From Actinomycetota bacterium (GTDB taxonomy: Bacteria; Actinomycetota; Actinomycetes; S36-B12; CAIYMF01), in NCBI GenBank assembly GCA_026393115.1, contig JAPLAU010000026.1, forward strand, positions 1 to 64,000: a stretch of DNA of 64,000 bases. Direction: 5' to 3'. The notes under the pieces are model-generated. The model searched no databases. It worked only from the letters and a program-made list of their open reading frames with translations, and was not told where the DNA came from. The translations under genes were made by a program, and so were the position numbers. Shown here piece by piece: positions 29,467 to 51,775 of this stretch (the stretch's first letter is position 1; each line of letters begins with the position of its first letter).

Positions 29467-31944
29467 CTACGAACGAATCCGCTCGCTCGTGGGGTCATAC
29501 CAAGGCCTGAGTGACGCAGATGCTGCGATGCGCTCGCAGGCGACCTCTATTTGGTACGTTCCCTCGATCACCCACTCGTTCGAGATCGGTGCATCTTCAG
29601 ATCGCACGTAGCCCATCCCAAGAGACGCGCCAACGGTGTGCCCGTGCATGCCGGAGGTAATACGTCCAACGATCGTTCCATCACGCCAGATCGGTTCGTT
29701 GTGGTACATCAGAGCATCGGAATCGGTGAGTTGGAATTGAACAAGTCGTTGGAGCATTCCTTCATCGCGACGTCGAAGTAGCGCCTCGCGACCGATGAAT
29801 CCTCCTGGCTTATCCCAGGCGACTGCAAACCCGAGCCCGGCTTCAAGGGGAGTTTCATCGGTGGAAATATCGTGACCCCAGTGTCGGTAGCCCTTCTCCA
29901 TGCGCAGTGAATTCAGTGCGTGGTAGCCAGCGGGTCTCAATCCGTGGTCGGCGCCGACTGCCCAGATCGCGTCGAAGACTCCGGCGGCGAATTCAGTGGG
30001 CACATACAGTTCCCAACCGAGCTCGCCGACGTAGGTGATTCGGCTTGCACGAACCCGCGCGTACCCAAGGTCGATCTGGCGAGAGTGGCTGAAAGGAAAC
30101 GCCTCATTGGAAAGGTCCTCAGACGTCAGTTGCGAAAGTAGGGCGCGAGAGTTCGGACCCATAATGCCCAGCACTGCCTGCGCACTTGTCACATCGACGG
30201 CGGCGCATCTCGCGTCGTTGGGGATATGGCGACGTAACCACGTGAGGTCACGTATCTGCGTCGCGGCCGCCGTCACCACCAGGAATCGGTCGTCGGCTTC
30301 GCGCGTGATCGTGAGGTCGGCCTCGATCGTGCCGCGCTCATTGAGCCATTGCGTGTACACGACCCGTCCGGGCTCGACGGCAATATTGTTCGCGCACACC
30401 TGATTCAACACAGCTTCGGCGTCGGGCCCCTGCACCACATATTTCCCGAACGAAGATTGGTCGAAAATGCCGACCGCCTCGCGTACCGCCGCGTGCTCTG
30501 CCGCTGAGTACCCGAACCAGTTCTGCCGACCGTAGGAATACTCGTACGTCGGTTCTACATCGGGTGGCGCGAACCAGTTCGCGCGCTCCCAACCTGCTGT
30601 CTCGCCAAAGCAAGCACCGAGTGCTGTCAGCCGGTCATGCAGGGTTGAGCGCCGCACTCCGCGGGCGGTCGCTGGCTGACGGAACGGCCAGTGCATGTCG
30701 TAGAGCAAGCCGAGCGTTTCCACTGTTCGGTCGTGAAGGTAAGAGGCATTGTGCTGAAAGGGCATCATTCGACGGACGTCGACATCCCACAGATCCATGG
30801 GGGGATGCCCGTCGATGATCCAGTCTGCCAGCACCGTGCCGGCTCCTCCGGACGACTGAATACCAATCGAGTTGAATCCGCACGCCATGAATAGACCCGG
30901 TACGTCAGGTGACTCCCCCAACAGATATCGGTCATCAGGGGTGAACGATTCAGGGCCATTGAAAAACAAACGGATGCCTGTGTCGGCTAGAACCGGCATG
31001 CGATGGATTGCGGACTCTAATTGCGGAGTGATGTGATCGATGTCCGGTGGCAGTGTTCCGAAGCTGAAGTCAGCGGGAATTCCGCTCGACTGGCCCTTCG
31101 CCGCCATTCCCCATGGCTTGGCAACTGGTTCGAACCAGCCGACGAGTAGTTTCCCGGCCTCTTCCTTGAAGTAGGCGAATCCATCTGGATCGCGCAACAC
31201 GGGCATGCTCGGAGAGATTTCGGCGAGCTCCTCGGTAACGATGTAGAAATGCTCGGCGGCATGCAGTGGCACTGTGGCGCCGGCCGGACCACCAAGTTCG
31301 CGGGCCCACATACCCGCCGCGTTCACTACTACGTCAGCGCGCAATTCCCCGCGCTCGCCGTCGAGTGTGTATTCGACCCCCACCGCTCGTCCGCCCTCGA
31401 CCACGATGCGCTCGACGCGGATATGTTCACGAATGATGACCCCGCGATCACGCGCGCCCTTGGCAAGTGAGCGGGTGGTGTCGACAGGGTTCGTGACTCC
31501 GTCACCAGGTAGATGTACTGCACCGACTAGGTCATTGATGTTGGCGAGAGGCACGAGTTCCTTCGCCTCACCTGGTGTCAAGACATTCACCTCGAGGCCG
31601 AAGACACGCGCCATGCTTGCGCCCCGCTTGAGTTCCTCGAACCGTGCAGGGGTGGTGGCCACGGAAACCGAACCCCGCTGCTGGAAGCCGGTGGCCTGCC
31701 CGGTGTCGGCCTCGAGATTTGCGAACAGTTGAGTGGTGTACTGCGCAAGGCGGGTCAGATTATGTGTGGCGCGCAGTTGACCGACGAGACCTGCTGCGTG
31801 CCACGTTGTTCCGCTGGTGAGCTCGGATCGCTCCAGCAGCACAACGTCGGTTACTCCCCGCTTGGCGAGGTGATAGGCCACGCTGCACCCGATGATGCCG
31901 CCGCCAATGATGACAACGCGCGCGTGGTCCGGCAAATCGTTCAT
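29467..31944 (-). CDS. dimethylglycine/sarcosine dehydrogenase-like flavoprotein
   Basis: An 825-residue two-part enzyme. Residues 1-370 are a DAO-type FAD domain with VVIIGGGIIGCSVAYHLAKRG, and H49 in SGTTWHAAGL matches the histidine that binds FAD covalently in dimethylglycine dehydrogenase. After the FAO_M linker, residues 430-800 are a GcvT-like folate domain (SFGKYVVQGPDAE, ITYVGELGWELYVP, MEKGYRHWGHDI). Family members remove an N-methyl group and pass it to tetrahydrofolate. It is the last gene of the minus arm; its ATG overlaps the alcohol dehydrogenase stop. The exact N-methyl substrate is unknown. Confidence 0.88.
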   Translation of the reverse strand: MNDLPDHARVVIIGGGIIGCSVAYHLAKRGVTDVVLLERSELTSGTTWHAAGLVGQLRATHNLTRLAQYTTQLFANLEADTGQATGFQQRGSVSVATTPARFEELKRGASMARVFGLEVNVLTPGEAKELVPLANINDLVGAVHLPGDGVTNPVDTTRSLAKGARDRGVIIREHIRVERIVVEGGRAVGVEYTLDGERGELRADVVVNAAGMWARELGGPAGATVPLHAAEHFYIVTEELAEISPSMPVLRDPDGFAYFKEEAGKLLVGWFEPVAKPWGMAAKGQSSGIPADFSFGTLPPDIDHITPQLESAIHRMPVLADTGIRLFFNGPESFTPDDRYLLGESPDVPGLFMACGFNSIGIQSSGGAGTVLADWIIDGHPPMDLWDVDVRRMMPFQHNASYLHDRTVETLGLLYDMHWPFRQPATARGVRRSTLHDRLTALGACFGETAGWERANWFAPPDVEPTYEYSYGRQNWFGYSAAEHAAVREAVGIFDQSSFGKYVVQGPDAEAVLNQVCANNIAVEPGRVVYTQWLNERGTIEADLTITREADDRFLVVTAAATQIRDLTWLRRHIPNDARCAAVDVTSAQAVLGIMGPNSRALLSQLTSEDLSNEAFPFSHSRQIDLGYARVRASRITYVGELGWELYVPTEFAAGVFDAIWAVGADHGLRPAGYHALNSLRMEKGYRHWGHDISTDETPLEAGLGFAVAWDKPGGFIGREALLRRRDEGMLQRLVQFQLTDSDALMYHNEPIWRDGTIVGRITSGMHGHTVGASLGMGYVRSEDAPISNEWVIEGTYQIEVACERIAASASLRPWYDPTSERIRS

Positions 31945-32984
31945 GACGTCACCGTACGTGCTGCGAGTTGTGGTAGCACGACTGCGCGTCCGCTGATGGT
32001 TCCCGAGCGCAGATCGTCGATCGCGTGATTGATGTCCTCGAGTGAGTAGGTGGTCAATGGCATCGTGAGTCGGTGAGTCTGGGCAAGCCGAACTACCTCG
32101 TGCAGGTCGCTGAGAGTGCCGGCGACCACCGTGGTGAGGGTCACTTCGGGAGCGAGCGATTCGAAGCCGTACGACAGATGACCACCGGAAAGGCCCAGCA
32201 GTGCAATCACGCCGCGGGTGCCGGTGATCTGCGCCGCTAGCGCGAGAGTCTGGTCGCTCCCCACGAAATCGATCACCGCCCGGCAGCCTTCCCCCGCCGT
32301 GTAGTCGAGAATCTCAGCGGCTACTTGTTCGTGCGAGAGAACGCAATGATGAGCGCCGGCTTCGGCTGCGCGCGTCAGCGCTGATGGTCGTTGATCGACA
32401 GCAATGACGATGGCATCGCTCAGGCTGCGCAGATAGTGCAGGGCGTATTGGCCGAGTCCGCCGGCTCCCACTACGGTCACCGCGCTGCCAGCCGTCAGCC
32501 AAGGAAGTACCCGTTGCACAGCCGCATAGGCGCACAGCGCAGCGCATCCGAAGGGTGTTCCTTCCACAGCAGAGATGTTTCCGAGCGGGACAACATGCCG
32601 TGCGTGTGGAACCAAGACATATTCGGCGAAACCGCCATCCGCGGTCGATCCCGCCTCCAGCCCCTGAGGACATAGTTGCTCGTATCCGGTCAGACACCAC
32701 TGGCATCGCCCGCAGCCCCAGCCCACCATCACCGCCACCGGTGTTCCGATATCGAGACCCTGTACGTCCGGGCCCACCGCGTCGACAACGCCAGCAATCT
32801 CATGCCCTGGGGTCACGGGACGGCGAACGAGGTGTTCGAACTGCCCGTCGAGCACGTGAAGATCGGAATGGCAGATCCCCGCGCCCATCACTGCCACCCG
32901 CACCGAGTCGTTCGTGGGAACAGGTGTGGTCAGGTCAATCACTTCAAGCGTGGTGGCGTTCGGGAATAGCCGGGCGGCTCTCAT
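31941..32984 (-). CDS. zinc-dependent medium-chain alcohol dehydrogenase
   Basis: A 347-residue MDR-family NAD(P)-dependent dehydrogenase. The catalytic zinc site is seen in GAGICHSDLHV and TPGHEIAGVV, the structural zinc is held by four cysteines in CGRCQWCLTGYEQLC, and the cofactor loop is VVGAGGLGQYAL. It oxidises an alcohol or reduces an aldehyde. Its ATG overlaps the amidohydrolase stop by one base (TAATG), so it is in the minus-arm operon. The substrate may be an alcohol or carbinolamine formed by the upstream enzymes, which is inference. Confidence 0.9.
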   Translation of the reverse strand: MRAARLFPNATTLEVIDLTTPVPTNDSVRVAVMGAGICHSDLHVLDGQFEHLVRRPVTPGHEIAGVVDAVGPDVQGLDIGTPVAVMVGWGCGRCQWCLTGYEQLCPQGLEAGSTADGGFAEYVLVPHARHVVPLGNISAVEGTPFGCAALCAYAAVQRVLPWLTAGSAVTVVGAGGLGQYALHYLRSLSDAIVIAVDQRPSALTRAAEAGAHHCVLSHEQVAAEILDYTAGEGCRAVIDFVGSDQTLALAAQITGTRGVIALLGLSGGHLSYGFESLAPEVTLTTVVAGTLSDLHEVVRLAQTHRLTMPLTTYSLEDINHAIDDLRSGTISGRAVVLPQLAARTVTS

Positions 32985-34543
32985 TAGCTGCCCTGCCAGA
33001 CACGAGCTCCACCGACATACGTGGCCAGTACTTCTATCTCACCCGCCGGCGGTGCGTTCGGCGCCAGTGGATCATCTGTCAGTAGCGCGAAGTCAGCGAA
33101 TGAACCTGGGGCGATGCAGCCGGCCACCCCTTCGGAGAATCCGCCGAAGGCAGAGCCGGATGTAAACAGCGCCAGAGCGTCGCGGACGTCGAGAGCCTCT
33201 TGCGGGTGGAAGGTGCTTCCATCGCGGCGCTGACGGGCCACGGCGGTGTCGACGTTTCCCAGTATTGACACACTTGAAGGGACGGTTCCGGTGCTGTCGG
33301 TTCCACCCACGAGTCGAATTCCGGCGGCAAGCAAAGTGCGTAGCGGTGCTCGCGGCCCGGAGGGATCGGCGGTCATACTGTGCAGAAATTGCGGAGTGGT
33401 GACAAGCAGCGCACCTGAATCCCGAACGGCTGGGAGATCGTCGAGGTCAATGAAGTCTCCGCCGTGTTCGATGCGGTGGCGTCGCGGGTTACTGCCATCG
33501 GGAGTCGACAGGTAGATCGCTTCGGCGGCCATTCGAACGCCTCGCGAATTGAGCGAGTGCAACCAGACCTGGAAACCCCTCGAGTCGGCATCACGCACGA
33601 ACGAGTTCAGTGACTCTTGAGTCCACTTGGGGTCGTCAAGCGGAACACCGAGTCCGTCATGAGCGCATCCGTTCACGAAGACTTTGATGCCACCGAAACG
33701 GAATGAGTCGCTCGTGGCGTCGATGCGTGCGAGTTCATCGGCCTCGTCGAGTGTCGCGACGCCAGGTGAGATCAGGTAGTAACGCTGTCGCAGTGACATC
33801 GCGTTTGCTTGGTGCAACGTTCGTAGTTGCTCGACCTGATGAAGGTTCTCCGGCATGGTGTGCACCGTCGTCGTGCCGGCTGCGTTGAACATGTCTCGGC
33901 CGTGGGTGATCACTGCGTGGTCAAAGCCCTCGGGCGTCACCGGTGGAGGCACCATCATGAAGATTTCGGTCACGACGCCGGTAGGAACTCCGGCAGAATC
34001 TCGATGCACTACGCCGTGGAAGGGATGAATCGAATCGGGCTCCCATAAACCCAGACGATGGAAGCCTGCGGTGTTGAGGGAAGCAACGTGCAGACTTGCG
34101 AACACGGCGAGCGGTCGGTCGGAGCAAATGGCGTCGAGTTCTTCGCGTGAGAACAGTCGCTGCTCCTCGACCTTTTCGTTCATAGCAAACGACGACCGAC
34201 AGAGCAGCCAATCCCAGTCGCCGCGGGGTCGGTCAAGTGAGGCGCGGATCTGTTCGGCCACTTCCGACAGTGAACGGTACGGAGGTGTATGGACAGGAAC
34301 CCAGCCATCGGTGGTGACGCAGGTGATTTCAAAGTGGCAGTGACCGTCAACGAAGCCCGGAACCACCGCGGCTCCGGCGCAATCGATCACATCGGCGTCA
34401 CCCGCGCGAGCCAGTACTTCCGTCAGCGAACCGACCGCAGTGATGACACCGTTCTCCGCGAGGAAGGCAGTGCTTCGGGGGACTGACTCGGGTTGAGCCA
34501 CGAGTCGAGCGTTGACCACCGCTACGCGCCTAGCGGTCAACAT
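32984..34543 (-). CDS. amidohydrolase (YtcJ-like, Amidohydro_3)
   Basis: A 519-residue metal-dependent hydrolase. Metal ligands appear in order: VDGHCHFE (HxH), the lysine candidate in GGIKVFVNG, VWLHSLNSRG, RIEHGGDF and the aspartate in VGGTDSTG. The C-terminal beta-sandwich returns with GSFADFALLTDDPL and ends VGGARVW, typical of exoenzyme-like amidohydrolases such as YtcJ. Relatives cut N-formyl, amide or cyclic amide bonds. The start overlaps the end of the M20 peptidase by seven bases. No signal peptide, so cytoplasmic. Confidence 0.87.
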   Translation of the reverse strand: MLTARRVAVVNARLVAQPESVPRSTAFLAENGVITAVGSLTEVLARAGDADVIDCAGAAVVPGFVDGHCHFEITCVTTDGWVPVHTPPYRSLSEVAEQIRASLDRPRGDWDWLLCRSSFAMNEKVEEQRLFSREELDAICSDRPLAVFASLHVASLNTAGFHRLGLWEPDSIHPFHGVVHRDSAGVPTGVVTEIFMMVPPPVTPEGFDHAVITHGRDMFNAAGTTTVHTMPENLHQVEQLRTLHQANAMSLRQRYYLISPGVATLDEADELARIDATSDSFRFGGIKVFVNGCAHDGLGVPLDDPKWTQESLNSFVRDADSRGFQVWLHSLNSRGVRMAAEAIYLSTPDGSNPRRHRIEHGGDFIDLDDLPAVRDSGALLVTTPQFLHSMTADPSGPRAPLRTLLAAGIRLVGGTDSTGTVPSSVSILGNVDTAVARQRRDGSTFHPQEALDVRDALALFTSGSAFGGFSEGVAGCIAPGSFADFALLTDDPLAPNAPPAGEIEVLATYVGGARVWQGS

Positions 34544-35820
34544 GAGGCGAGGAACCTGTCTAGTACGCGAACTCCGAATTCCAGCGACTCCACTGGTACT
34601 CGCTCGTCAATTCCGTGGAAGAGGGCACTGAAGTCAAGGTCAGGAGGAAGTTGGAGAGGGACAAAGCCGAAGCAGCGAATGCCGAGCTCAGAAAAGACTT
34701 TGGCGTCGGTGCCACCGGTGAGTAGGTACGGGACTGGAATAGCCGAGGCGTCCTCGGCTCGGAGCGCGGCACACATCGCGTCGACCAGCGCCCCTTCGAA
34801 TTCGGTTTGCACGGATATCCCGTGAGTCATGACTTCGACCTGCACTGAATCACCGGCAAGTCGCACCACGTCATCCATCAAGTCTTGCTCGTATCCGGGC
34901 AAGAAGCGCGCATCGATAATTGCGGTGGCCTCCGAAGGCACCACGTTGCTTTGGTATCCGGCGTCGAGCCGAGTGGGGTTGGCCGTGTTACGCAGGCATG
35001 CTCCAACCATCCGAGCGAGGCCCCCTAGTTCGGGTAGCCATTCCTCCGCCTGTGCTGGGTCGAGTTCATGCCCGACGATCGGCTCCAGTTCCCGTAGCAG
35101 GACAGCGACTTCTGGGATGACATGAATGGGGAAGTCGTGGGATCCGATGCGCGAGACCGCACCGGCCAATCGTGTGACTGCGTTATCTGGGTGAATCATT
35201 GACCCGTGGCCGGGTCGACCGGTCGCGCGTAGCTTGAGCCACGCGATTCCTTTCTCGGCCGTCTGCAGCAAATACAGTCGGGCGGTATCGCCGAGCGAGA
35301 CGCTAAACCCACCGACTTCCCCAATCGCCTCAGTACAGTCCGCGAAGAGGTCGGCATGATTGGCCGCGAGCCAGCGCGACCCGGCAGGGCTTCCCATCTC
35401 TTCATCGGCCAGGAACGCAACAACAAGGTCGCGCGGTGGTCGGATACCCTCGCGGGCCCATCGACGTAGCACGGTGATCACCATGGCGTCCATATCTTTC
35501 ATATCAACAGCACCGCGACCCCAGACGTATCCATCGCGCACTTCACCACTGAATGGATGAACCGACCACTCCCCGGCCTGAGCGGGAACGACATCGAGGT
35601 GGCCCTGAATGAGCAGCGGCGGCCTACGTGGGTCGGTACCCTCAATCCGCGCGATCACATTGGATCGCCCGGGTTCCCCCTCGAGAATTGTCGATTCGAT
35701 CCCCACTTCGTCGAACAGGGCGGCGATGTACTCGGCTGCCGGCCTCTCCGGCATTCCGGGATTGCTGGTGTCAAAGCGAATGAGGTCGCTAAGAATGGTG
35801 ACCACTTCAGACGTCGTCAC
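34537..35820 (-). CDS. M20-family metallopeptidase/amidase
   Basis: A 427-residue zinc amidohydrolase of the M20 (ACY1/DapE/CPG2) family. Metal ligands and the general base are visible: IQGHLDVVPA, WGRGAVDMKD, LADEEMGSP and the late LFHGIDERVP histidine. The dimerisation domain is inserted at about residues 195-320 (ATGRPGHGSM start). Enzymes of this type hydrolyse dipeptides, N-acyl or N-carbamoyl amino acids. The GTG start has AGGAGG upstream and overlaps the stop of the cytosolic binding-protein gene (GTGA). Confidence 0.9.
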   Translation of the reverse strand: MTTSEVVTILSDLIRFDTSNPGMPERPAAEYIAALFDEVGIESTILEGEPGRSNVIARIEGTDPRRPPLLIQGHLDVVPAQAGEWSVHPFSGEVRDGYVWGRGAVDMKDMDAMVITVLRRWAREGIRPPRDLVVAFLADEEMGSPAGSRWLAANHADLFADCTEAIGEVGGFSVSLGDTARLYLLQTAEKGIAWLKLRATGRPGHGSMIHPDNAVTRLAGAVSRIGSHDFPIHVIPEVAVLLRELEPIVGHELDPAQAEEWLPELGGLARMVGACLRNTANPTRLDAGYQSNVVPSEATAIIDARFLPGYEQDLMDDVVRLAGDSVQVEVMTHGISVQTEFEGALVDAMCAALRAEDASAIPVPYLLTGGTDAKVFSELGIRCFGFVPLQLPPDLDFSALFHGIDERVPVESLEFGVRVLDRFLASC

Positions 35821-37328
35821 GCGTCCTCCTGGTGTGCGGATCTCTCGCTGCGGCGGCTATCGCCCGTCATTCGCAGGTCGCCGTAGAGGGGGTACAACGT
35901 GCGTGGTGAGAGTCCGAAGTTGGTGGCAGCGCGATCGACTGCGAGCGTTTCGGTGGGGGAGCACAGGGGTAGGTACGGCAGGTTCTCCATGAAGAGCCGC
36001 TGGGCGTTCTCAGCGGCTCCGCGCAGTTCGCCTTCGCGCGCGCGCAGGAAACTGTCGAAAGCGTCGTCAACGGCAGGAATCATCGAGCGCTGCCAGTTAC
36101 CTCCTGCGGGCTCGATGCAATCTGAACTCGAGAAGCCCATCGCTGCTTCCATTCCGTCTTGCCACAGCCACTTGCTCAGGAAGGAATCCGGACCGTCGGC
36201 TACGGAACGATAGAAGTCTTCAAAGGGTTGGTGGTAATTGAAACGCAACCGAATTCCGAACGGCGCTAGTTGCTGTGTCAATTCGTTCGCCAGCCGTCTG
36301 AAAACGGCAGTGTCTTGAGTGGCGCACTCGAGATCGAGTACGAAGCCGTCGCGCTCAAGAATCCCGTCGGCGCCGGGCCGGAAACCCATCGTCGCCAACT
36401 CCTGCGTGGCCTGCGCGCGCGCCAAGGACTGATCGACAGTGGGGGTGTAATCCCCGGCGAATTCGTCGATGACAGGAAGCGGTGAAGTCGCGGGATGGCC
36501 GGCGCCATTCAGCGCTGAGGCGACAAGGGCATCACGATCGATGAGCCCGTAAACGGCACGGCGCAATGGGAGATGGTCGAAGCCGGCGGGAAAACTCAGG
36601 GCTAGATAGAACTGCGAGGCTTGCGGCTGCGAGTCAATTCTCCACCGTGCATCGTCGGAGGAAACGAAAGTCGCCGGCACCTCTCGTACCGCGTCAAACT
36701 GCCGTGAACTCAGACAGTGCGCTCGTTCTTCGTCGTCGACCACCGAGCTCCACCGAAGTGTGTGAGGCTGGCCGATTTGTCGCGTGCCGACAAGTTCGGC
36801 CGTCACCGCCGTGGGCGAGAAACTCACTAGCCGGTAGAGACCCGTTCCGTCGGCAGCGGTGACGCCGAAGTCGTCGCCCCATTCACGCCAGGTTCGGGGG
36901 TTCGCGATCGCGGTGTGTGTTCCCCAAAGCAACACTGGAAGGCGAGCGCAAGGAAAGAGGAGCCGTACTTCAACGGTGAGGTCATCGAGCGACCGCACCG
37001 AATCGACCGGATCCCAATACCAGACCTGGCGGGGTAGGCCTTCTCCCCACCGACAGAGTTCGAGAGCCTCGACGACTGCGCGTGAATCACACGGATCTCC
37101 CGAGTGGAAGCGCGCTCCTTCACGCAATCGCAGTCGCCACGACATTCCGTCGGCGCTGATCTGCCAGTTCTGTGCCAGTCCCGGTGCGGGAAGTCCATCG
37201 GGCCCCTTGGTCAAGAGCGTTTCGTAGATTGCGACGCTGGGGGGATCAATGTGGTCACCTCGTACCGGATCGAGTCGGGTAAACCCGTACTCGAAGACTT
37301 CCTCGAAGTCGGCGCGAGGGCCGGTCAT
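35817..37328 (-). CDS. family 5 solute-binding protein lacking an export signal
   Basis: A 503-residue protein of the peptide/nickel binding family (SBP_bac_5). The mature fold begins at once: FEYGFTRLDPV near residue 12 and the family hallmark LREGARFHSGD at about 69-78. There is no signal peptide, twin arginine or lipobox cysteine, and the upstream gene overlaps the ATG, so none can be hidden upstream. It is a paralogue of the Tat lipoprotein at 41832: both have FHSG, a KWLW motif (386-389 here) and a matching C-terminal pattern ending LYP-Y-D. It probably acts in the cytoplasm, perhaps as a carrier or scaffold for the M20 enzyme translated with it. Confidence 0.88.
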   Translation of the reverse strand: MTGPRADFEEVFEYGFTRLDPVRGDHIDPPSVAIYETLLTKGPDGLPAPGLAQNWQISADGMSWRLRLREGARFHSGDPCDSRAVVEALELCRWGEGLPRQVWYWDPVDSVRSLDDLTVEVRLLFPCARLPVLLWGTHTAIANPRTWREWGDDFGVTAADGTGLYRLVSFSPTAVTAELVGTRQIGQPHTLRWSSVVDDEERAHCLSSRQFDAVREVPATFVSSDDARWRIDSQPQASQFYLALSFPAGFDHLPLRRAVYGLIDRDALVASALNGAGHPATSPLPVIDEFAGDYTPTVDQSLARAQATQELATMGFRPGADGILERDGFVLDLECATQDTAVFRRLANELTQQLAPFGIRLRFNYHQPFEDFYRSVADGPDSFLSKWLWQDGMEAAMGFSSSDCIEPAGGNWQRSMIPAVDDAFDSFLRAREGELRGAAENAQRLFMENLPYLPLCSPTETLAVDRAATNFGLSPRTLYPLYGDLRMTGDSRRSERSAHQEDA

Positions 37329-38068
37329 CAGATCACGTTCTTCGGAACGCCGAGTCGACTAAAAACCTGAGCAGCGTCGTCGACGTGTCGCTTGCCATTC
37401 GTCATCGAGAGCATCAGATGTCCGGGTAGGAGAGCGTCGAATTCGAGTTCGGCAAGGCGTGACATTGACTGCGCGCATGCCTGCAGGTCGCAGTCAGGGA
37501 TGTTCTGCAACAGAATCTGACCGCCGACGAACACTTGGTCGCCACTGAAAAGCAGTCCGCCCGCGCCATCAGTGACATGGAAGCAGAGATGGCCATGGCA
37601 GTGCCCCGGCGTCTCAATAGCGGTGATGGTGGTCTCTCCAGCAGTGACCTGCCATCCGTCGCGCACCCTGTCGTCGACTACGCATGGTTCCAGCGAGAAG
37701 TCAGCGGGGTAATAGCCCAACTCACGTGCACGGGCCAGTGAGTTGGCTGTCTCATCTCCGCGACCAATCTCATCTGCCACGTCATGTGCCACTGCAATCA
37801 AGACATGAGGGAGTGCGCGACGCAGTTGCGCGAGGGCGCCGGCATGGTCGGCGTGGGAGTGGGTGATGAACACGCGTGTGATGTCTGCTGGTTCAAGTCC
37901 GTCGGCGCGGGCGTTCGACAGGATCATGTCGAACGAGTTGAGCCCCACATCGATGAGCCAAATTCCTTCGGAAGTCGACAGCGCGTAGACGTTTGAGTCG
38001 ATCGAGCCAGAGAGTCCGAATCCGGCATCTCCACCCCCGATAACAAAGAGTGTGTCCGAAAGGCGCAT
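37328..38068 (-). CDS. metallo-beta-lactamase-fold hydrolase (minus-arm copy)
   Basis: A 246-residue MBL-fold protein. The first metal motif is THSHADHAG (H70, H72, D74, H75), followed by TPGHCHGH, FSGDQVF and LPGHL for the remaining ligands, so a two-metal site is complete. Members hydrolyse thioesters, lactones or amides. It is paralogous to the protein at 50586: the same start pattern (VIGGGDAGF versus VGGGDYGYN) and the same GGQILLQNI/GGKIILQNV strand. In both arms it follows an SDR gene. Its stop overlaps the next start (TGATG). Confidence 0.88.
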   Translation of the reverse strand: MRLSDTLFVIGGGDAGFGLSGSIDSNVYALSTSEGIWLIDVGLNSFDMILSNARADGLEPADITRVFITHSHADHAGALAQLRRALPHVLIAVAHDVADEIGRGDETANSLARARELGYYPADFSLEPCVVDDRVRDGWQVTAGETTITAIETPGHCHGHLCFHVTDGAGGLLFSGDQVFVGGQILLQNIPDCDLQACAQSMSRLAELEFDALLPGHLMLSMTNGKRHVDDAAQVFSRLGVPKNVI

Positions 38069-38070
38069 GG

Positions 38071-38871
38071 CTACAAGGTCCCAACGGGATTGACGAAGAC
38101 GGTCGCATGATTGCCACCGTCGATGACGAGGTTTTGTCCGGTGGTGTATCCCGCGTCATCGCTCGCGAGATAGGCGTACGCAGCGGCGATCTCCTCGGGC
38201 AGCCCCAGTCGCCCCATCGGAACGAGAGGGTAGTGAGCGCGCGCGGCCTCCATCGCTTCGTCACTGCCGAGTAGTGCGCGAGAGAGCGGGGTGTCGAGCG
38301 GTCCAGGACTCACGCAGTTCACTCGGATGCGGTGCTGCACCAGTTCGATGGCCATGGTCTGAACCAAGTTGATGATGCCCGCCTTCGAGACTCCGTAGTG
38401 CGCGTCACCGTCGGAAGCACCCATGCCTGAAATGGAGGCCGTGAAGAGAATGGACCCGCCCTTTCCGTCGGCCACCATGGCGCGAGCGGCGATCTGGCCG
38501 AGAACGAATGACGCGGTGAGATTTACGTTGATCACGCGATGCCATTCGTCGTCACTCATTTCAAGGAAGGGTGCGTCGCCATCGGCACCAGCGTTACTCA
38601 CGAGTACGTCGAGGCGCCCGTGACTGGCAATGACCGCGTCGGCAGCCGCCTGACACAGTGAGCGTGAAGTCACGTCTCCTGGCAGAGCAAGGGCGGAGGT
38701 TCCGAACGTTTCGAGCTCAGCAACTACTGCAGCGAGAGCGCTCTCGTCGCGGTCGAAGAGTCCGATTGTGGATGCGCCCTCCTGTGCAAATCGGAGTGCG
38801 GTCGCGCGGCCAACGCCGCTGCCTCCACCGGTGATGAGAGCCGACTTTCCCTTCAGGCGGTCACACGCCAT
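38071..38871 (-). CDS. short-chain dehydrogenase/reductase (minus-arm copy)
   Basis: A 266-residue classical SDR. The cofactor motif is TGGGSGVGRATA, the NAG motif is VSNAGADG, and the catalytic residues are serine in SISGMG with YGVSK (Tyr-x3-Lys). The adenine-side residue pattern (GLFDRDES) with an aspartate after strand 2 favours NAD(H). It is a paralogue of the protein at 49780, sharing FLEM, IVNLVQTMAIELV-like and SPGPLDTP segments. It reduces or oxidises a ketone or alcohol of the island pathway. Two bases separate it from the MBL gene. Confidence 0.9.
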   Translation of the reverse strand: MACDRLKGKSALITGGGSGVGRATALRFAQEGASTIGLFDRDESALAAVVAELETFGTSALALPGDVTSRSLCQAAADAVIASHGRLDVLVSNAGADGDAPFLEMSDDEWHRVINVNLTASFVLGQIAARAMVADGKGGSILFTASISGMGASDGDAHYGVSKAGIINLVQTMAIELVQHRIRVNCVSPGPLDTPLSRALLGSDEAMEAARAHYPLVPMGRLGLPEEIAAAYAYLASDDAGYTTGQNLVIDGGNHATVFVNPVGTL

Positions 38872-38875
38872 CGAT

Positions 38876-40042
38876 TCAACCTCCGTTTGAGCGAGTCAAG
38901 GAGGCATAGGCGGCGGTAAGCCGTGTGACCCCCTCGACGATGACGTCATCAGATGCGGCCAGCGTGAGGCGAAGGAATCCCTCTCCGCCTGCTCCAAATG
39001 CCAGACCTGGAACCGTGCCCACGGAGGCCTCTCGGAGCATGTGGTGGGCGAGCGACCAGGAGTCCATTTGCGTTGCGCGACCGTCGACCATGAGGAAGAA
39101 AGCGCCGTGTGGCATCACGAATGGAACGTCCCCGGACTCAAGGATTTCGACCGCGATTCCTCGCCTTCGCCGGTAGGCGGCGACCATGTCATCGACGCAG
39201 TCTTGGGGTCCTTTCAGTGCGGCCAGCGCGGCATGCTGCGACACGGTCGACGCACAGGAAACCACTGGCTCCTGATGAAGAGAGAGTTGCCGAATGAAGT
39301 CGGAAGGTCCGGTGGTGTAACCGACTCTCCAGCCAGTCATGGCGTAGGTCTTAGAAAATGTAAAGATGCTGATGACTCGGTCGCTGCCCCCCAAACTTGC
39401 TGTCGACACTGCGGGAGCATCAAACACGAGTTGGTCGTATGCCTCGTCCGAGATGATCCACAGATCATGTCGCTCTGCGATGTCGAGTACTTGGCGAAGA
39501 GACTCAGCCGACTCCACACAGCCAGTTGGATTGCTCGGCGTATTCACCAAGATTGCTCGGGTTCGCGGCGTAATGGAGGCCTCTAACGCCTCTATGTCGA
39601 TACTCCAACCCTCATCGGGTTGCAATGGGTACGCGACGGGAACAGCGTTGAGCACGTGAACCATGGCGGCGTAGTTAGACCAACCCGGATCGGGAATGAG
39701 TAGCTCATCGCCTGGATCGAGCAGCACCATCAGGGTGGTGTAGAGCCCACCGCAGGCGCCGGTAGTGATGCAGACCTGATCGGCCGCCACGTGGATGTTG
39801 TTGATACGGCCCAGTTTTTCGGCACTCGCCTCTCGCAAGGTCATGAGCCCATCACCTGGCGAATACCCGGTTCCCCCAGCACGTGCCGCCGCCGCTGCGC
39901 CGTCGATGATGTGTTCAGGTGTGGTGAAATTCGGGTCGCCGTTGATCAGCATCACCGGATTGTCGACGTCGCGCGCGTACTCAAGCATCCGTCGAATGCC
40001 GGAGTGGGGCGTGTCGAGAACCCATGGGCGCACCTGAGGCAT
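38876..40042 (-). CDS. class I/II PLP aminotransferase
   Basis: A 388-residue fold-type I aminotransferase. NTPSNPTG (N171) contacts the PLP ring, ISDEAYDQL holds D199 and Y202, and the Schiff-base lysine is K231 in FTFSKTYAMTGWRVGY. The substrate-carboxylate arginine is in FLRLTLA near the C-terminus. The subgroup resembles aspartate/aromatic aminotransferases. It lies second in the minus arm, three bases after the EthD-like gene, and probably removes the amino group from a pathway amino acid to give a 2-oxo acid, a possible substrate for the E1 enzyme of the other arm. Confidence 0.9.
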   Translation of the reverse strand: MPQVRPWVLDTPHSGIRRMLEYARDVDNPVMLINGDPNFTTPEHIIDGAAAAARAGGTGYSPGDGLMTLREASAEKLGRINNIHVAADQVCITTGACGGLYTTLMVLLDPGDELLIPDPGWSNYAAMVHVLNAVPVAYPLQPDEGWSIDIEALEASITPRTRAILVNTPSNPTGCVESAESLRQVLDIAERHDLWIISDEAYDQLVFDAPAVSTASLGGSDRVISIFTFSKTYAMTGWRVGYTTGPSDFIRQLSLHQEPVVSCASTVSQHAALAALKGPQDCVDDMVAAYRRRRGIAVEILESGDVPFVMPHGAFFLMVDGRATQMDSWSLAHHMLREASVGTVPGLAFGAGGEGFLRLTLAASDDVIVEGVTRLTAAYASLTRSNGG

Positions 40043-40045
40043 CTG

Positions 40046-40744
40046 CTAGACCTCGAGGATTCCGGGGCCAGTCACGGGAGGTTCGATGATTACGGACTCG
40101 GTCATCAACCAGAACGCGGTGCCGGTTGTCATCGCGTAGTTGCCGACGTCCTTCCAAGCCGCCTGAGCCGGCTCGGTTGATTGGGCATCGTTGAAAGCCT
40201 GTTCATCGACGTACCACTGTGCGATCAGCGCATCCGCTGATTCTTCGCCAAGTTGGCCCTCGTGGGCTCGCGATACGACATAGCCACCAACGCCAGGCAC
40301 GCTCCCGCCGATCGGCGCATGCACGTTGGTCCAGTAGTCGAAGAAGGCGTCGGGCTCAAAGTCCTCTCGCCGAAAGGCGGTTCCGGCGAGCTTGATCGAC
40401 CACGGTGAACCGTCGCGGGCGAAGTCGCGAACCTCCTTGAACACGATCTCCGAGCACGTGGCAGCGGTGACGTTGAGATTCTCGGTGTCACGCAGGCCGA
40501 GAGTGATTGTTTGGCCAGTGAGTTCAGCGCCGACACCGTCACCCCAGACCTCAATCAGTGCCATGAGCGGGTCGTTGTCGGCGAATGGTTTGACCACACG
40601 CGACACCACGAGTCCGGTCACAGCAGGCTCGACCGTGGTGAGGGCCTGAGCGGCTGCCTCGACATGCGGCCAGACCGCATCGCGCCACTCCTGCGTTGCC
40701 GAACCCGTGGAGGACCGAACCAGTGCGACAACTTTGTTCATCAT
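40046..40744 (-). CDS. EthD-like dimeric alpha-beta barrel protein (minus arm)
   Basis: A 232-residue protein that appears to contain two ferredoxin-like alpha-beta halves. The second half (FEPDAFFDYWTNVHAPIGGSVPGVGGYVVSR) shows the EthD pattern of a W...H.P....PG...Y helix-strand element. Such domains bind or transform hydrophobic ligands, but most are uncharacterised. Two ATG codons (40744, 40741) and a GTG (40747) follow GGGAGGGGAG; I take 40744. It is the first gene of the minus arm, with a clear promoter at 40783-40812. A single-domain relative opens the second half of the plus arm (51439). Confidence 0.75.
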   Translation of the reverse strand: MMNKVVALVRSSTGSATQEWRDAVWPHVEAAAQALTTVEPAVTGLVVSRVVKPFADNDPLMALIEVWGDGVGAELTGQTITLGLRDTENLNVTAATCSEIVFKEVRDFARDGSPWSIKLAGTAFRREDFEPDAFFDYWTNVHAPIGGSVPGVGGYVVSRAHEGQLGEESADALIAQWYVDEQAFNDAQSTEPAQAAWKDVGNYAMTTGTAFWLMTESVIIEPPVTGPGILEV

Positions 40745-40782
40745 CACTCCCCTCCCACGCCTTCACGGGCGTACATGCTGGG

Positions 40783-40832: not shown

Positions 40833-41528
40833 TCAATCTCGGGAAGACGTACGCGTACTGAGTTCGGTGCGATGGTCCTTCAGAATGAGCATTGTCGTGA
40901 GTTCAATGTGCTGCCGAAGTGCCTCGACCGCTGCGTCAGCATCGCGGCCGATCGATAACTCGCACAGCCTGCGGTGATTGACCACGTGATCCTCGGGAGT
41001 GATTTCGCCGGGTCGGTCGGCCCACTGGCGGTACACCTCGCCCGCGTCGCGCAGCGACGACGCGACTCCTTTGAGCCGCTCGTTACTGCAACCGTCGAGG
41101 AGGGCGAGATGGAAGCGAGTGTGGGCAACCGACCAGTCTTCGTTGATCTCCCCATCCTCGCTGCGCAGATCGAGCCTGCTGAGGTGATGGTGGGTGGCCA
41201 ATACGCTGGCTTCCCAGGCGAGGGATCCGTCGGCGATGGACTTGCGCAGGACTAGCGTTTCCACCTCGATCTCGGCTTCGGTGAGCTGCTCGAGATCGGC
41301 GGGGTCAACCGACACGACTCGGACTCCTCGCTGCGGGGTCGCAACAGCCAATCCTTGGCCGACCAGACGCGGTAAAGCCTCGCGAATCACGCCGCTACTT
41401 AAACCGTAGGTATCGGCAAGGGCCTCCACCCGCAGCCGTGCTCCGGGCGCGATGCGCCCGTGGAGGATGTCGGCACGCAACAGCTCGTATGCCTGATCGG
41501 CGCGCGTCGGGCTATTCGCAGAAGTCAC
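40833..41528 (-). CDS. GntR-family regulator (FCD/FadR subfamily)
   Basis: A 231-residue regulator. The N-terminal winged helix reads AYELLRADILHGRIAPGARL, then LADTYGLSSGVIREALPRL, the standard GntR recognition region. The C-terminal FCD domain is all-helical with metal/ligand residues in HTRFHLALLDGCSN and HVVNHRRLCELS. The GTG at 41528 is chosen because a TTGACG-17-TGTAAT promoter ends six bases before it, which fits a leaderless transcript. The gene lies between the two arms of the island; I infer that it controls the minus arm, and perhaps itself. Confidence 0.88.
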   Translation of the reverse strand: MTSANSPTRADQAYELLRADILHGRIAPGARLRVEALADTYGLSSGVIREALPRLVGQGLAVATPQRGVRVVSVDPADLEQLTEAEIEVETLVLRKSIADGSLAWEASVLATHHHLSRLDLRSEDGEINEDWSVAHTRFHLALLDGCSNERLKGVASSLRDAGEVYRQWADRPGEITPEDHVVNHRRLCELSIGRDADAAVEALRQHIELTTMLILKDHRTELSTRTSSRD

Positions 41529-41534
41529 GCTTTC

Positions 41535-41563
41535 ATTACACCGAGGTCGCCAGTCCGCGTCAA
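41535..41563 (-). promoter_or_regulatory. likely leaderless promoter of the GntR gene
   Basis: On the minus strand TTGACG (41563-41558) is followed after 17 bases by TGTAAT (41540-41535). Six bases later comes the GTG start of the GntR gene, so transcription and translation should begin at nearly the same base. No ribosome binding site is seen, which agrees with a leaderless message. Confidence 0.6.
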
Positions 41564-41753
41564 TTCTACTGAATTCCAGACAATGCGCCGATTTGAATCG
41601 AAGACTGTCGAACAGACAGGCACCTATCAATTAATTGCGAGAATCTGTTGACATTGCGAGACAACCCGCCTTCAATAGCGCTACGGCATCGCGTGCGTCA
41701 ACAGGTCAGCGCGACCGGGTTACTGAAGTCGGGAAAGTGCTGAGCCTAGGTGC

Positions 41754-41781: not shown

Positions 41782-41831
41782 TTCGACCCGAGCCGCTACT
41801 GGGTAGTCGTCGCTGAGAAATGGAGTTGGAC

Positions 41832-43547
41832 ATGAGCGAAGACCAGCAGGATCTCCGAAAGAATCTCAAGGCCTACACCGAAGGGACGCTCACTCGACGC
41901 AGTTTCCTTACCAAGATGGCTGCGATGGGAGTAGGCGCGGCCGCTGCGGGTAGCCTTCTGGCCGCTTGCTCGAGTAACAGCGGCGGCACGAGTTCATCCT
42001 CGGCGCCGGCGTCAGACTCCGCGAGCGCCTCGGCCTCAGCTTCGGCGAGTGCTTCGGCGAGTGCCGCGCCCGTCAGTGGTGGCATCTTCAAAGAGGGCTA
42101 CGACCGCGCGCCAACTCCGCCGGACCCGGTTCGTAACGCCTGGGCCGACCCCGACTTCAATGCGTTCTATGAGGCATTGGTCGTGCGTGATCCGCAGGCG
42201 GCCATCGTTCCTGCTCTTGCCAGTGCCTTTGCTAACAACGGCACAAACTGGACCTTTGAGTTGCGTGATGGTCTGAGTTTCCACTCGGGTGCCAAGTGCA
42301 CGCCCGAGATTGTCGTGAAGGACATGAACCTTTTCCGTGATCCCAACGTGGGACAGAACGGAATCTTCTGGACCCCAGTCACTTCCATTACGAATAAGGG
42401 TCAGCAGATTATCGTCGCGACGGCGCATCCGTTCGCGGCCTTCCAAGAAACCATTACCACTGAGTATTCGTACATTCTCAACCCTGCGGCGCGCGAAAAG
42501 GCCGGTGATAAGTACGGCGCAGAAGTGATCGACGGAACCGGCCCGTTTGAGTTGGATTCCTTCAGCACCAACGAAGTTAAGGCCAAGCGCTGGGAAAGCT
42601 ACCCCGGATCGGTTACGCCCTTCTTCTCCAACAAGGGTAAGGCGTATCTCGACGGAATCACGTGGGTGTCGATCACCGAGGCGTCGCAGCGAGCGAACGA
42701 AATTGAAACCAGCAACGTCGACGCCATCAAGAATCCGCCGCCGCAAGACGTCGATCGACTCAAGGGTAACGCCGACCTTGTCGTGCAGGAGTTTCAGGAG
42801 CTCTCGAACTTCTTCTTGTCGGTTAACATCGGCAACAAGGAACTCGGCTTCGATGACCTCAGGGTTCGTCAGGCGATCTCGCAGGCAATCGACCGCGAAG
42901 GAATCGTGCAGTCGATCTTCTTGGGTCACGCCGCAGCCACGTATGGTCCGGTGATGCCGGGATACGTCTGGTACAACCCGGCCGTCGAGCAGTACAACCA
43001 GTACAACCCGGATTCGGCCGCGAAGTTACTTGACGACGCAGGTTGGAAACTAGGTACTGACGGAGTTCGTGAGAAGGGTGGCAAGAAACTCTCCTTCACG
43101 ACGATTCAACATCCGGACACTGTTGAGCAGCAGGTGATGCAGGCCGTGGTCGAGATGCTCAAGGCCGTCGGTATCGACATGAAGGCCCAAGTACTTGACG
43201 ACGCAGCTTTCTATCCCAAGTTGACTCCTGACTTGACTTCATATGCGTTCAAGTGGCTGTGGTCCAGTCCGATCGACGTCGTGGCGTTGTTCATCGACTT
43301 CTACCAGCCCAAGAGTCCTCAGCTCGATGAAGTGAATGCCGCCTTTGCTGAATGGCAAAATGCAGCGGACACTGACGGTCTGAAGGCCGCGGCATTCAAG
43401 GTGCAGGAGTTGGTCGCCAAGCAGCTCCAAATCATCCCGCTCTATACACCCAACACCATTTGGGTGAACCGCAATAACGTCATGGGTTGGGCGCCAAACC
43501 AAGCCAATCTGTACCCGTTCTACAACGACGTGTGGCTTGCCAAATAG
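41832..43547 (+). CDS. Tat-exported lipoprotein, family 5 solute-binding protein
   Basis: A 571-residue binding protein of a peptide-type ABC importer. The N-terminus has a twin-arginine motif (TRRSFLTK), a hydrophobic helix and a lipobox LLAAC with the lipidated cysteine at 46, followed by a flexible Ser-Ala repeat linker. The SBP_bac_5 hallmark LRDGLSFHSGAKCTPE is clear. The cysteine implies folding before Tat export or lipid anchoring at the membrane. ATG 41832 is taken over 41820 because GGAG lies seven bases before it. It heads the ABC operon and has a signal-less paralogue at 35817. Confidence 0.92.
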   Translation: MSEDQQDLRKNLKAYTEGTLTRRSFLTKMAAMGVGAAAAGSLLAACSSNSGGTSSSSAPASDSASASASASASASASAAPVSGGIFKEGYDRAPTPPDPVRNAWADPDFNAFYEALVVRDPQAAIVPALASAFANNGTNWTFELRDGLSFHSGAKCTPEIVVKDMNLFRDPNVGQNGIFWTPVTSITNKGQQIIVATAHPFAAFQETITTEYSYILNPAAREKAGDKYGAEVIDGTGPFELDSFSTNEVKAKRWESYPGSVTPFFSNKGKAYLDGITWVSITEASQRANEIETSNVDAIKNPPPQDVDRLKGNADLVVQEFQELSNFFLSVNIGNKELGFDDLRVRQAISQAIDREGIVQSIFLGHAAATYGPVMPGYVWYNPAVEQYNQYNPDSAAKLLDDAGWKLGTDGVREKGGKKLSFTTIQHPDTVEQQVMQAVVEMLKAVGIDMKAQVLDDAAFYPKLTPDLTSYAFKWLWSSPIDVVALFIDFYQPKSPQLDEVNAAFAEWQNAADTDGLKAAAFKVQELVAKQLQIIPLYTPNTIWVNRNNVMGWAPNQANLYPFYNDVWLAK

Positions 43548-43599: not shown

Positions 43600-43641
43600 G
43601 TGACGAGTGACCGAGAAGCCGAGCCAAGACGGGCGGGATGA
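43600..43641 (+). CDS. possible 13-codon leader peptide
   Basis: GTG at 43600, ten bases after AGGAG, opens a 13-codon frame (MTSDREAEPRRAG) whose TGA overlaps the ATG of the permease gene (ATGA). It may only serve to couple translation. It could equally be chance, since the sequence is short. Confidence 0.25.
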   Translation: MTSDREAEPRRAG

Positions 43642-44579
43642 CGATGTCATACGTCATCAAAAGAATCGGCTATGCGATTCTCATTATGTTTTTGGCGTCA
43701 TTGGTAACCTTCGCGGCGCTGCGGGTGGCGCCTGGCAGCGCCGTCACGTCGATTCTCGATCCTGCTCGTACCCCACCCGAGGTCATTGAGCGGTACAAGG
43801 AAGAACTCGGCCTTAATCTGCCCATCTGGCAGCAGTACGTGAACTACATGGCCAATGTTCTTCGTGGGAATTTCGGTACCTCGTTGTTCGATCGGCGCCC
43901 AGTGTTTGACCTCATTGCCGACGCCGCCCTGTACACGGTGGTGCTTGCGTTTGCTGCCTTCGTTCTTGCCTTCGGGCTGGGGGTGCCGGCAGGCGTCATC
44001 GCCGCGCTGAACCGCGGAGGTTGGTTTGACCGAGTGATTCGGTGGGTCACGAGTGCCTTCATGTCGATCCCGAACTTCGTGCTTGCGCTCTTGCTGGTGG
44101 CCATCTTGGGCGTAAAACTGAGATTCCTTCCAGTCTCAGGAGCTTCGGGACCGGCCAATCTCATTCTCCCGGCACTTGTTCTGGCAGCCGACCCATGGTC
44201 GCTGACCACTCGCGTCACTCGCACCGCTGTCGTTGAGCAACTAGGTGCCGACTACACGCGAACTCTTCGTGCGCGAGGGGTGTCGCGCACGCGCATCAAC
44301 TGGCGCCACGTGCTTCGCAATGCACTCACTCCGGTGGTGTCGTTGGGTTCGGTGCAGATTCGAACATTGCTGGGTTACACCCTCATTGTTGAGGTGATCT
44401 TCCGTTGGCCGGGCATGGGTTCTCAACTCGTGCAGGCCATCCTCAAGCGCGACTACCCCGTCGCATCGGCGCTCGCACTGCTTCTTGCTCTGGTGGTGGT
44501 GATCGCGAGCACCGTTGGTGACCTGCTACTTCGAGCGGTTGACCCGCGCATTCGAAGTAATCAGGCGGTGATCTCCTGA
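43638..44579 (+). CDS. ABC transporter permease, DppB type
   Basis: A 313-residue inner-membrane permease with about six helices. The N-terminus YVIKRIGYAILIMFL, then LRVAPGS, and the motif RTLRARGVSRTRINWRHVLRNAL (EAA loop that docks the ATPase) identify the DppB/OppB type. It pairs with the DppC-type subunit that starts in its stop codon (TGATG). The imported ligand is unknown; the family covers peptides, nickel, opines and sugars. Confidence 0.92.
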   Translation: MTMSYVIKRIGYAILIMFLASLVTFAALRVAPGSAVTSILDPARTPPEVIERYKEELGLNLPIWQQYVNYMANVLRGNFGTSLFDRRPVFDLIADAALYTVVLAFAAFVLAFGLGVPAGVIAALNRGGWFDRVIRWVTSAFMSIPNFVLALLLVAILGVKLRFLPVSGASGPANLILPALVLAADPWSLTTRVTRTAVVEQLGADYTRTLRARGVSRTRINWRHVLRNALTPVVSLGSVQIRTLLGYTLIVEVIFRWPGMGSQLVQAILKRDYPVASALALLLALVVVIASTVGDLLLRAVDPRIRSNQAVIS

Positions 44580-45469
44580 TGGTGACCTCACTGGTCATCG
44601 CGCCCGTCGATGTTCCTGAATCCCGCCGTCACAAGAAACGTATCGGTGGTATCACGATCCCCACGTGGATTGGGGTGGGTCTACTCGCGTTATGCGCCCT
44701 GCTCGGCCTTGTGGTGTTGCTCGCGCCTGCTTTCCGGAATCTCTGGACCGCACAAGATCTGCGCGCAACATTCCTGCCACCGTTGAGTTCGGGTCACCCG
44801 TTTGGAACCGACAATCTGGGGCGCGACCTGATGTGGCGCACTCTTGCCGGACTGGGTGTATCGGTTGCGGTGGGTCTCGGAGTTGCCTTTCTGGCGGTAA
44901 CGCTCGGCCTCATGGTGGGAATCGTTGGCGGCTACTTCGGGCGTGCGGCCGATGTCACCTCAAACATCGTCATTGACGTCACATGGGCCTTCCCTGCGAT
45001 TTTGCTGGCGGTTGTTTTTGCCGGTTGGCTCGGCCCTGGATTGCTCACGGTGGTTTTGGCACTGGCACTCACCGAGTGGGCCGGCTTTTCCCGAATCATC
45101 AGGGGTGAAGTGCTGTCTCTGAGAGAGCGCGACTACGTCTCTGCCGCGCGAGTTCTGGGGCGCAACAAAGTGGCAATCAGCCTGCGTCACTTTGTGCCGA
45201 ACCTGCTGCCGGTGACCCTGGTTCTGGCGGTCTATTTTGTCGCAGGCGCCATCGTGGCGGAAGCGGGCTTGTCTTTCCTTGGAATCGGAGCGCAGCCTCC
45301 CACTCCGAGTCTTGGCTCAACGCTGGCGCAGGGGCGTGACTATCTCACGCGTACGTGGTGGCCCGTGATTCTCGCCGGTGGTGTCTTGACCCTGACAGTG
45401 CTTCTTCTGAACAGCGTGAGTGACCAGTTGCGCGAGCACTTCGACCCAAGAATCGGCAGACGTCGATGA
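44579..45469 (+). CDS. ABC transporter permease, DppC type
   Basis: A 296-residue permease with about six helices. LSSGHPFGTDNLGRDLMWR is the typical start of DppC/OppC proteins, and the ATPase-docking loop is VLSLRERDYVSAARVLG, followed by NLLPVTLVLAVYF. It forms the channel with the preceding permease. The next gene starts within its stop codon (ATGA). Confidence 0.92.
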   Translation: MVTSLVIAPVDVPESRRHKKRIGGITIPTWIGVGLLALCALLGLVVLLAPAFRNLWTAQDLRATFLPPLSSGHPFGTDNLGRDLMWRTLAGLGVSVAVGLGVAFLAVTLGLMVGIVGGYFGRAADVTSNIVIDVTWAFPAILLAVVFAGWLGPGLLTVVLALALTEWAGFSRIIRGEVLSLRERDYVSAARVLGRNKVAISLRHFVPNLLPVTLVLAVYFVAGAIVAEAGLSFLGIGAQPPTPSLGSTLAQGRDYLTRTWWPVILAGGVLTLTVLLLNSVSDQLREHFDPRIGRRR

Positions 45470-51329: not shown

Positions 51330-51376
51330 ATCCGCATCTTGTAGATGTCAGTCACTGACTGAGTAAGGGGGTAGCT

Positions 51377-51765: not shown

Positions 51766-51775
51766 AGTCGTTGGA

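Follow-up and report, generated by a model that had tools for sequence, protein, structure and literature searches.

The 64,000-nucleotide stretch of DNA analysed here (hereafter the window; positions 1 to 64,000 of contig JAPLAU010000026.1, assembly GCA_026393115.1, from an Actinomycetota bacterium) encodes a family 5 solute-binding protein (SBP) without an export leader. This leaderless SBP (lSBP), 503 amino acids long, is encoded on the minus strand from position 37328 (ATG) to position 35817 (TGA). Its missing leader is not a local truncation: full-length relatives in several genomes start at nearly the same point and form a single clade, close to the exported SBPs of the same gene clusters. 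We propose that the lSBP is a cytosolic ligand-binding protein that serves the short-chain dehydrogenase (SDR), and perhaps also the metallo-beta-lactamase (MBL)-fold enzyme, acting on an imported substrate, a reading that we find plausible, if somewhat short of probable.

Absence of an Export Leader

In a Pfam search, SBP_bac_5 (PF00496) was the sole domain of the lSBP (residues 48-388, E-value 1.4e-37, 130.1 bits for a cut-off of 32.4), which places the protein in family 5, as does its predicted fold. The stop codon of the upstream MBL gene overlaps the lSBP ATG by one base (TGATG). Upstream of this ATG, the frame contains 10 codons, none of them a start codon, and is then closed by a stop; the predicted fold opens with a strand starting at residue 8. 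The first-pass annotation of this DNA, which described a binding protein starting directly with its mature fold behind an overlapping gene, was thus correct on both points.

It also suggested looking for orthologues with an intact signal peptide. We found none, as no credible leader precedes any of the 12 full-length members, with a caveat for one of them (L019). Leader calls rest on start codons, a hydropathy scan (Kyte-Doolittle) and matches to Shine-Dalgarno sequences; by these means, neither a Sec or Tat (twin-arginine translocation) signal peptide nor a lipobox was recognised in any of the 12 lSBPs, apart from the weak alternative in L019. The six close homologues in the genomes of three relatives (two each) all start at the mature fold. 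Across the 12 proteins, the open frame before the fold either lacks a start or contains starts that give no uncharged hydrophobic stretch. The exceptions are L012 B (weak, hydropathy 0.75), L013 (starts at least 58 codons upstream give 1.70, but sit within a neighbouring open reading frame resembling dimethylformamidase), L024 (a TTG, 8 residues, 1.42) and L019, which is considered below. Leadered relatives with a full leader score 1.56-2.02 in the same scan; the leader of L044 was missed by the cut of the scan, but a Tat leader is visible on separate reading. In the alignment, the lSBPs start (LREGFDYPLSRLDP in L022) where the mature part of leadered relatives does (GGTLREGYDLDFSKMDP in L046).

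Most family members in lSBP-bearing genomes are conventional. Four of these genomes (G000, G003, G009 and G082) contain 36 PF00496 places, 30 of which were read as loci (the other six being three lSBPs already known and three unread places): 25 of the 30 have a hydrophobic leader, four are lSBPs and one is broken. In this last one, L087 (G009:C229), the open frame begins inside the fold, indicating a broken gene or an assembly frameshift.

Relationship to Exported Binding Proteins

A tree of 41 rows (IQ-TREE) unites the 12 lSBPs and a Lentisphaerae fragment in one clade (support 100/100), with a base branch of 0.8. Eight leadered SBPs encoded in the same genomes join this clade (90/83), followed by L046, and the other family 5 proteins fall outside (100/100). 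L021 and L026 were excluded as partial or fragmentary, and the leadered L065 and L066, found later, are absent. The Lentisphaerae fragment is represented by its second copy, L040, which was labelled 'leadered' on account of its low score despite lying inside the leaderless clade; because of this mislabelling, a scripted count returned two leader changes instead of one. As the lSBPs form one clade beside the Tat-exported SBPs of the same clusters, the leader would most simply have been lost once, provided that the tree is rooted within the other family 5 proteins.

One of these exported SBPs is encoded in the window itself, by a transporter divergent from the lSBP operon. The proposal that this Tat-type lipoprotein is a paralogue of the lSBP is borne out, with 27% identity over 501 columns (E-value 4e-43). 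The motifs cited in its favour are present, namely FHSG, KWLW and similar C-termini (LYPLYGDL and LYPFYNDV), but they differ in value. F74, H75 and G77 are nearly invariant across 40 family members, so that FHxG is a general family feature and says little on specific paralogy; K386 of KWLW occurs in six of the nine near leadered relatives and in none of the 19 far ones.

Distribution of the Leaderless Family

A close homologue was detected in 4 of the 119 genomes of relatives searched (own genome included), the three others each carrying one homologue at 54-56% identity and a second one at 42-44%. Scanning genome contigs with the window protein alone returned 24 pattern matches and no relative. 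We then used as a profile a seven-row alignment of the window protein and its six close homologues (A1). The A1 contig scan yielded 10 loci, the new ones being located in an Acidimicrobiaceae bin, another actinomycetote, a Chloroflexia bin, two Thermomicrobiales bins and a Lentisphaerae bin (a fragment). In total, 12 full-length lSBPs (the window's included) are present in nine genomes of Actinomycetota and Chloroflexota/Thermomicrobiota. They score 606-831 bits with the A1 profile, and the leadered proteins of the same loci at most 304; a Tat leader is clearly present in two further relatives, which score 358 and 341 bits. By this profile, lSBPs occur in 3 of 394 genomes sampled within the class (counting the own genome), in 1 of 396 within the phylum (the own genome) and in 3 of 158 within the class to which G477 belongs, these three samples overlapping in part. 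A close exported paralogue is still present in eight of the nine lSBP genomes (it was not seen in G475).

At the Lentisphaerae locus (L026:9992-10633), the lSBP is limited to its first ~210 residues (48-57% identity). No homologue of the window's cluster genes was found at this locus, which is a fragment or a stray contig.

Composition, Selection and Fold

The lSBPs contain 5.8 cysteines per 500 amino acids, about four times the content of their near exported relatives (1.35 in nine near relatives with a leader and 0.9 in 19 far ones; counts on mature parts, without the lipobox cysteine, which adds at most one per protein). The difference has a Mann-Whitney p of 2.8e-7, which is not a probability for independent events because the sequences are related. 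On the same measure, the window's own cytosolic enzymes mostly have 2-13 cysteines, and its LacI protein none. Isoelectric points range from 4.8 to 5.4 in lSBPs and from 4.1 to 4.8 in 27 of the 28 leadered proteins, the remaining one being at 8.3.

For the closest pair of lSBPs, L024 and L025 (two Thermomicrobiales genes), the ratio of non-synonymous to synonymous substitution rates (dN/dS) is 0.052, and the same genomes give 0.045 for the Tat-exported SBP, 0.053 for the MBL and 0.051 for the SDR; a more distant pair (L022/L025) gives 0.15. Synonymous sites are heavily changed and these figures are therefore rough, but the L024/L025 pair appears to be under purifying selection.

AlphaFold2 predicts a complete binding-protein fold for the window lSBP (pLDDT 91.6, pTM 0.90) from a 40-row alignment, and reached a pLDDT of 64.5 with the seven-row one. 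The 40-member alignment leaves out the window protein's own duplicate (L028) and the fragment, and several of its starts were set by hand. The closest match to the model is AapF (Z 37.0, root-mean-square deviation 2.8, 457 aligned residues, 19% identity), with DppA, AppA, MppA, NikA and others within a few Z units. The predicted fold by itself does not reveal the ligand.

Loops Specific to the Leaderless Proteins

The lSBPs have 113 conserved columns (at least 11 of the 12 proteins), of which 48 are common to at least eight of the nine near leadered relatives and 38 are present in at most one of them. Fourteen of these 38 lSBP-specific columns lie in two segments, 100-106 (R100, Q101, W103, Y104, D106) and 129-140 (R129, L130, L133, W135 to A140). 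The corresponding motifs, RQxWYWDP and LLWGTHTA, are common to lSBPs and absent from their exported relatives. Two caveats apply to the 38 columns: D391 and N411 are common among far family members, and in most near leadered rows gaps stand opposite Q101, F369, N411 and W412. When the lSBP is aligned with Brucella NikA, R100 and W103 fall opposite the R and the W of 'PRHNW'. The corresponding loops contact the ligand in NikA and CntA, and the changed loops of the lSBPs probably line the ligand cleft. The alignment shows loops that changed once and are now conserved.

Neighbouring Genes

The lSBP gene is embedded in a minus-strand series in the order EthD, aminotransferase, SDR, MBL, lSBP, M20, amidohydrolase, alcohol dehydrogenase and FAD/GcvT protein. 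Its main neighbours are as follows (E-values are given after the Pfam accessions).

29467 to 31944, minus strand: FAD oxidoreductase with GcvT domains (PF01266, PF01571), of dimethylglycine-dehydrogenase-like architecture
31941 to 32984, minus strand: protein of the zinc alcohol dehydrogenase family (PF08240, PF00107)
32984 to 34543, minus strand: amidohydrolase, Amidohydro_3 (PF07969, 6.5e-41)
34537 to 35820, minus strand: M20 hydrolase (PF01546, 6.2e-34; NF005913, 661.1 bits for a cut-off of 382)
37328 to 38068, minus strand: MBL-fold hydrolase with the metal motif HSHADH (PF00753, 7.2e-27)
38071 to 38871, minus strand: SDR (PF13561, 9.8e-62)
38876 to 40042, minus strand: pyridoxal-phosphate aminotransferase of the same operon (PF00155, 3.6e-68)
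40046 to 40747, minus strand: EthD-domain protein (PF07110, 1e-5)
40833 to 41630, minus strand: GntR/FCD regulator at the divergent centre (PF00392, PF07729)
41820 to 43547, plus strand: Tat-type exported binding lipoprotein, the lSBP paralogue (leader RRSFL...LAAC, as read)
43638 to 44579 and 44579 to 45469, plus strand: two permeases of the same transporter, read from the sequence, with homologues beside Tat-exported SBPs elsewhere
45466 to 46440 and 46305 to 47207 (start of the second uncertain), plus strand: two ABC ATPases, read from the sequence
49780 to 50589, plus strand: second SDR, 61% identical to the first
50586 to 51329, plus strand: second MBL, 44% identical to the first

The stop codon of the lSBP overlaps by four bases (GTGA) the GTG start of the M20 gene, which is preceded by AGGAGG. 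As both the start and the stop of the lSBP gene overlap neighbours, the MBL, lSBP and M20 genes are probably translated together. The overlap with enzyme genes noted at first pass is thus confirmed, and those enzymes themselves show no leader. The special tie to the M20 peptidase put forward at the same time was not supported in that form by comparison with other loci. By tblastn within the same locus (raw counts over 12 lSBP loci), an M20 gene is found in only three loci (G000, G003 and G082) and touches the lSBP only in the window, whereas an MBL is found in all 12 (11 within 5 kb) and an SDR in 11, the remaining locus (G082 B) stopping at a contig end. Amidohydro_3 is found in 3 of the 12. 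The SDR lies within 210 nt of the lSBP in six loci, and an SDR or MBL does so in seven.

Gene order is SDR-lSBP-MBL-M20 in G003 and G082, and MBL-PPOX-lSBP-SDR in the Chloroflexia and Thermomicrobiales loci. Several genomes carry two lSBPs: the two G003 copies share a contig and are each accompanied by a separate SDR and MBL; the first G009 copy is paired with an SDR but lacks a dedicated MBL; and the G082 copies are accompanied by SDR and/or MBL, the second one on another contig. Three related clusters, L067 and L068 (G595 and G629) and L072 (G477), carry a leadered SBP with no lSBP alongside, and a PPOX-type protein occurs in all three. The sole SDR found in these three clusters is 32% identical, with none above. 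An MBL is present in two of them, which makes the SDR the more specific neighbour. Thus, the lSBP is linked more closely to the SDR-MBL set than to M20, the SDR being its most specific companion.

In the window, 49780-51329 is a partial duplicate of the enzyme set (SDR and MBL) on the other arm of the same cluster. No relic of a second lSBP was found in positions 51000-52000 (best E-value 0.1, word size 2). Next to this duplicate, 47872-49777 encodes the E1 alpha and E1 beta subunits of a thiamine pyrophosphate-dependent dehydrogenase, with no E2 or E3 recognised alongside; homologues occur in several actinobacterial clusters. The 52878-54941 protein combines a C-terminus of the N,N-dimethylformamidase beta-like type (PF20254) with a laminin-G domain, and has homologues in lSBP loci L012, L013, L016, L019 and L020. 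Finally, 55245-56117 encodes an AraC-type helix-turn-helix (HTH) fused to a methylguanine methyltransferase domain (Ada-like).

The other enzymes vary among lSBP clusters (amidohydrolases, M20, E1-type dehydrogenase, aldolase, Dak1). For example, in the Acidimicrobiaceae bin (L019:6429-9899), genes for a class II aldolase, a HAD hydrolase and Dak1 adjoin the lSBP and point to sugar-like chemistry.

Proposed Role and Alternatives

According to the tree and the alignment, the lSBP appears to derive from the same stock as the Tat-exported SBP of the neighbouring transporter, its leader having been lost precisely up to the point where the mature fold begins. The protein would then have stayed inside the cell. 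Cytosolic residence, already assumed in the first-pass annotation, is supported indirectly by the missing leaders, the cysteine content and the operon partners. While keeping its predicted binding-protein fold with altered but conserved loops, the lSBP would most likely bind an intermediate derived from the imported substrate, which it would hold for, or pass to, the nearby SDR and probably the MBL-fold enzyme. The first-pass suggestion that it delivers or shields a reactive intermediate is possible, but nothing points to reactivity.

Several observations weigh against this proposal. All named relatives come from metagenome bins. No SDR or MBL is located within 210 nt of five of the 12 lSBPs, and the nearest MBL to the G009 A lSBP is 10.4 kb away. 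SDR and MBL are large families, and the neighbour counts are raw, uncorrected for chance. Two of the three leadered-only clusters, L067 and L068, carry an MBL as well (L072 does not), and the association of this gene may therefore be with the transporter and not with the lSBP. Translation of L019 from a TTG located in frame, 26 codons upstream of the inner ATG, would produce the lipobox-like MGAMVITACSS (1.45); this alternative has no charged n-region, and the inner ATG is preceded by a perfect AGGAGG. Lastly, a conserved cleft would suit an enzyme or a sensor equally.

The first of these two, a new enzyme whose SBP fold would have acquired a catalytic function in the cytosol, carrying out a step alongside the SDR and the MBL, seems unlikely to us. 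Such conversions have occurred before, as described for cyclohexadienyl dehydratase (PMC7683729). The long branch at the base of the clade (0.8) would fit a functional change, and six polar residues (H26, R100, Q101, D106, H138 and T139) occur in at least 11 of the 12 lSBPs and at most one of the nine near leadered relatives. However, Q101 falls in a gap in eight of these nine, no catalytic signature is recognisable, and the same residues fit a new ligand. Moreover, we know of no family 5 enzyme.

Still less probable is a ligand sensor controlling the cluster, in the manner of AmiC (bound to AmiR) or of the solute-binding domain of SgrR. AmiC serves as the reference for cytosolic single-domain proteins in PMC9602780, an SgrR-type regulator, DsvR, has an SBP_bac5 domain after its HTH (PMC13060122), and GntR and LacI regulators are present within lSBP clusters. 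But no HTH was found on the lSBP with Pfam, and the SgrR model gives 23.2 bits for a cut-off of 476. We rejected an AmiC-AmiR pairing: 16 ANTAR places were found in eight of the nine genomes, none of them on a cluster-bearing contig (some of which are short). In addition, the GntR/FCD and LacI proteins carry ligand domains of their own, and the lSBP sits among enzymes, not beside one fixed regulator.

It is very improbable that the lSBP is exported after all, whether taken along without a leader by its Tat-signalled paralogue or leaving by some other non-classical route. The Tat system translocates folded proteins, and partners without a leader can travel with them; the paralogue does have a Tat leader, and L019 its weak alternative one. 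Against this stand the cytosol-like cysteine content of the lSBPs and their location among leaderless enzymes, divergent from the transporter in the window and in G082. The single paper found to combine the terms twin-arginine, hitchhiker and substrate-binding protein opens its abstract with foreign-protein production.

Although L087 shows that broken family members occur in a related genome, ordinary decay of an SBP that recently lost its leader, a local truncation or a mis-annotated start is hardly credible, and we rejected it, given 12 full-length leaderless members with near-identical starts in one clade, a dN/dS of about 0.05 in the closest pair and a start conserved across at least two phyla.

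Comparison with Known Systems

The lSBP resembles the family 5 SBPs of transporters (GsiB, NikA/NikZ, CntA, DppA and AapF) in domain, sequence and whole fold, but differs from them by its lack of signal peptide or lipobox, its operon of leaderless enzymes and its specific loops. Unlike the situation of an ordinary transporter SBP, a separate Tat-leadered SBP adjoins the permeases in lSBP clusters.

A binding-protein fold in the cytosol is not unprecedented, as AmiC and the SgrR domain illustrate. AmiC is encoded in the Pseudomonas amidase operon, belongs to the Peripla_BP_6 family and acts via the ANTAR protein AmiR. Like AmiC (a reference in PMC9602780), the lSBP would be a single-domain SBP fold used in the cytosol, but it has SBP_bac_5 as its only Pfam domain, without a domain of the Peripla_BP_6 type, and lacks an ANTAR gene on its cluster contigs. 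As in SgrR and DsvR (PMC13060122), an SBP_bac_5 domain would be used in the cytosol, but here without a recognisable DNA-binding domain. Finally, the lSBP may be likened to cyclohexadienyl dehydratase and MqnD, in which an SBP fold has been turned to another function (PMC7683729; MqnD from its references). The lSBP differs from both in its family. Cyclohexadienyl dehydratase and MqnD belong to binding-protein families other than family 5.

Implications

Leaderless proteins with SBP domains are easily set aside in surveys. In one SBP survey (PMC9602780), about 1% of automatically retrieved proteins were predicted to be cytosolic, sequences without a signal peptide went to manual curation, and SBP Pfam profiles were noted to match also cytosolic proteins with other functions, with the AmiC-AmiR structure as reference. 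A search of the open-access literature with a few terms listed no free-standing family 5 protein that lacks a leader and is linked to enzymes.

A more specific scenario is possible, but we hold it to be doubtful: a duplicated SBP, stripped once of its leader, may have become a dedicated intracellular carrier. One SBP would catch the substrate outside, its paralogue inside would hold the next intermediate and pass it to the SDR and MBL, and enzymes and carrier would then have been duplicated together in some clusters. In any case, a single duplication and a single apparent loss of export make the lSBPs a natural experiment, conserved in at least two phyla and accompanied by a close exported paralogue in nearly all of the same genomes. 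They raise the testable question of whether SBPs may serve as intracellular metabolite carriers, or whether a new route leads from binder to enzyme.

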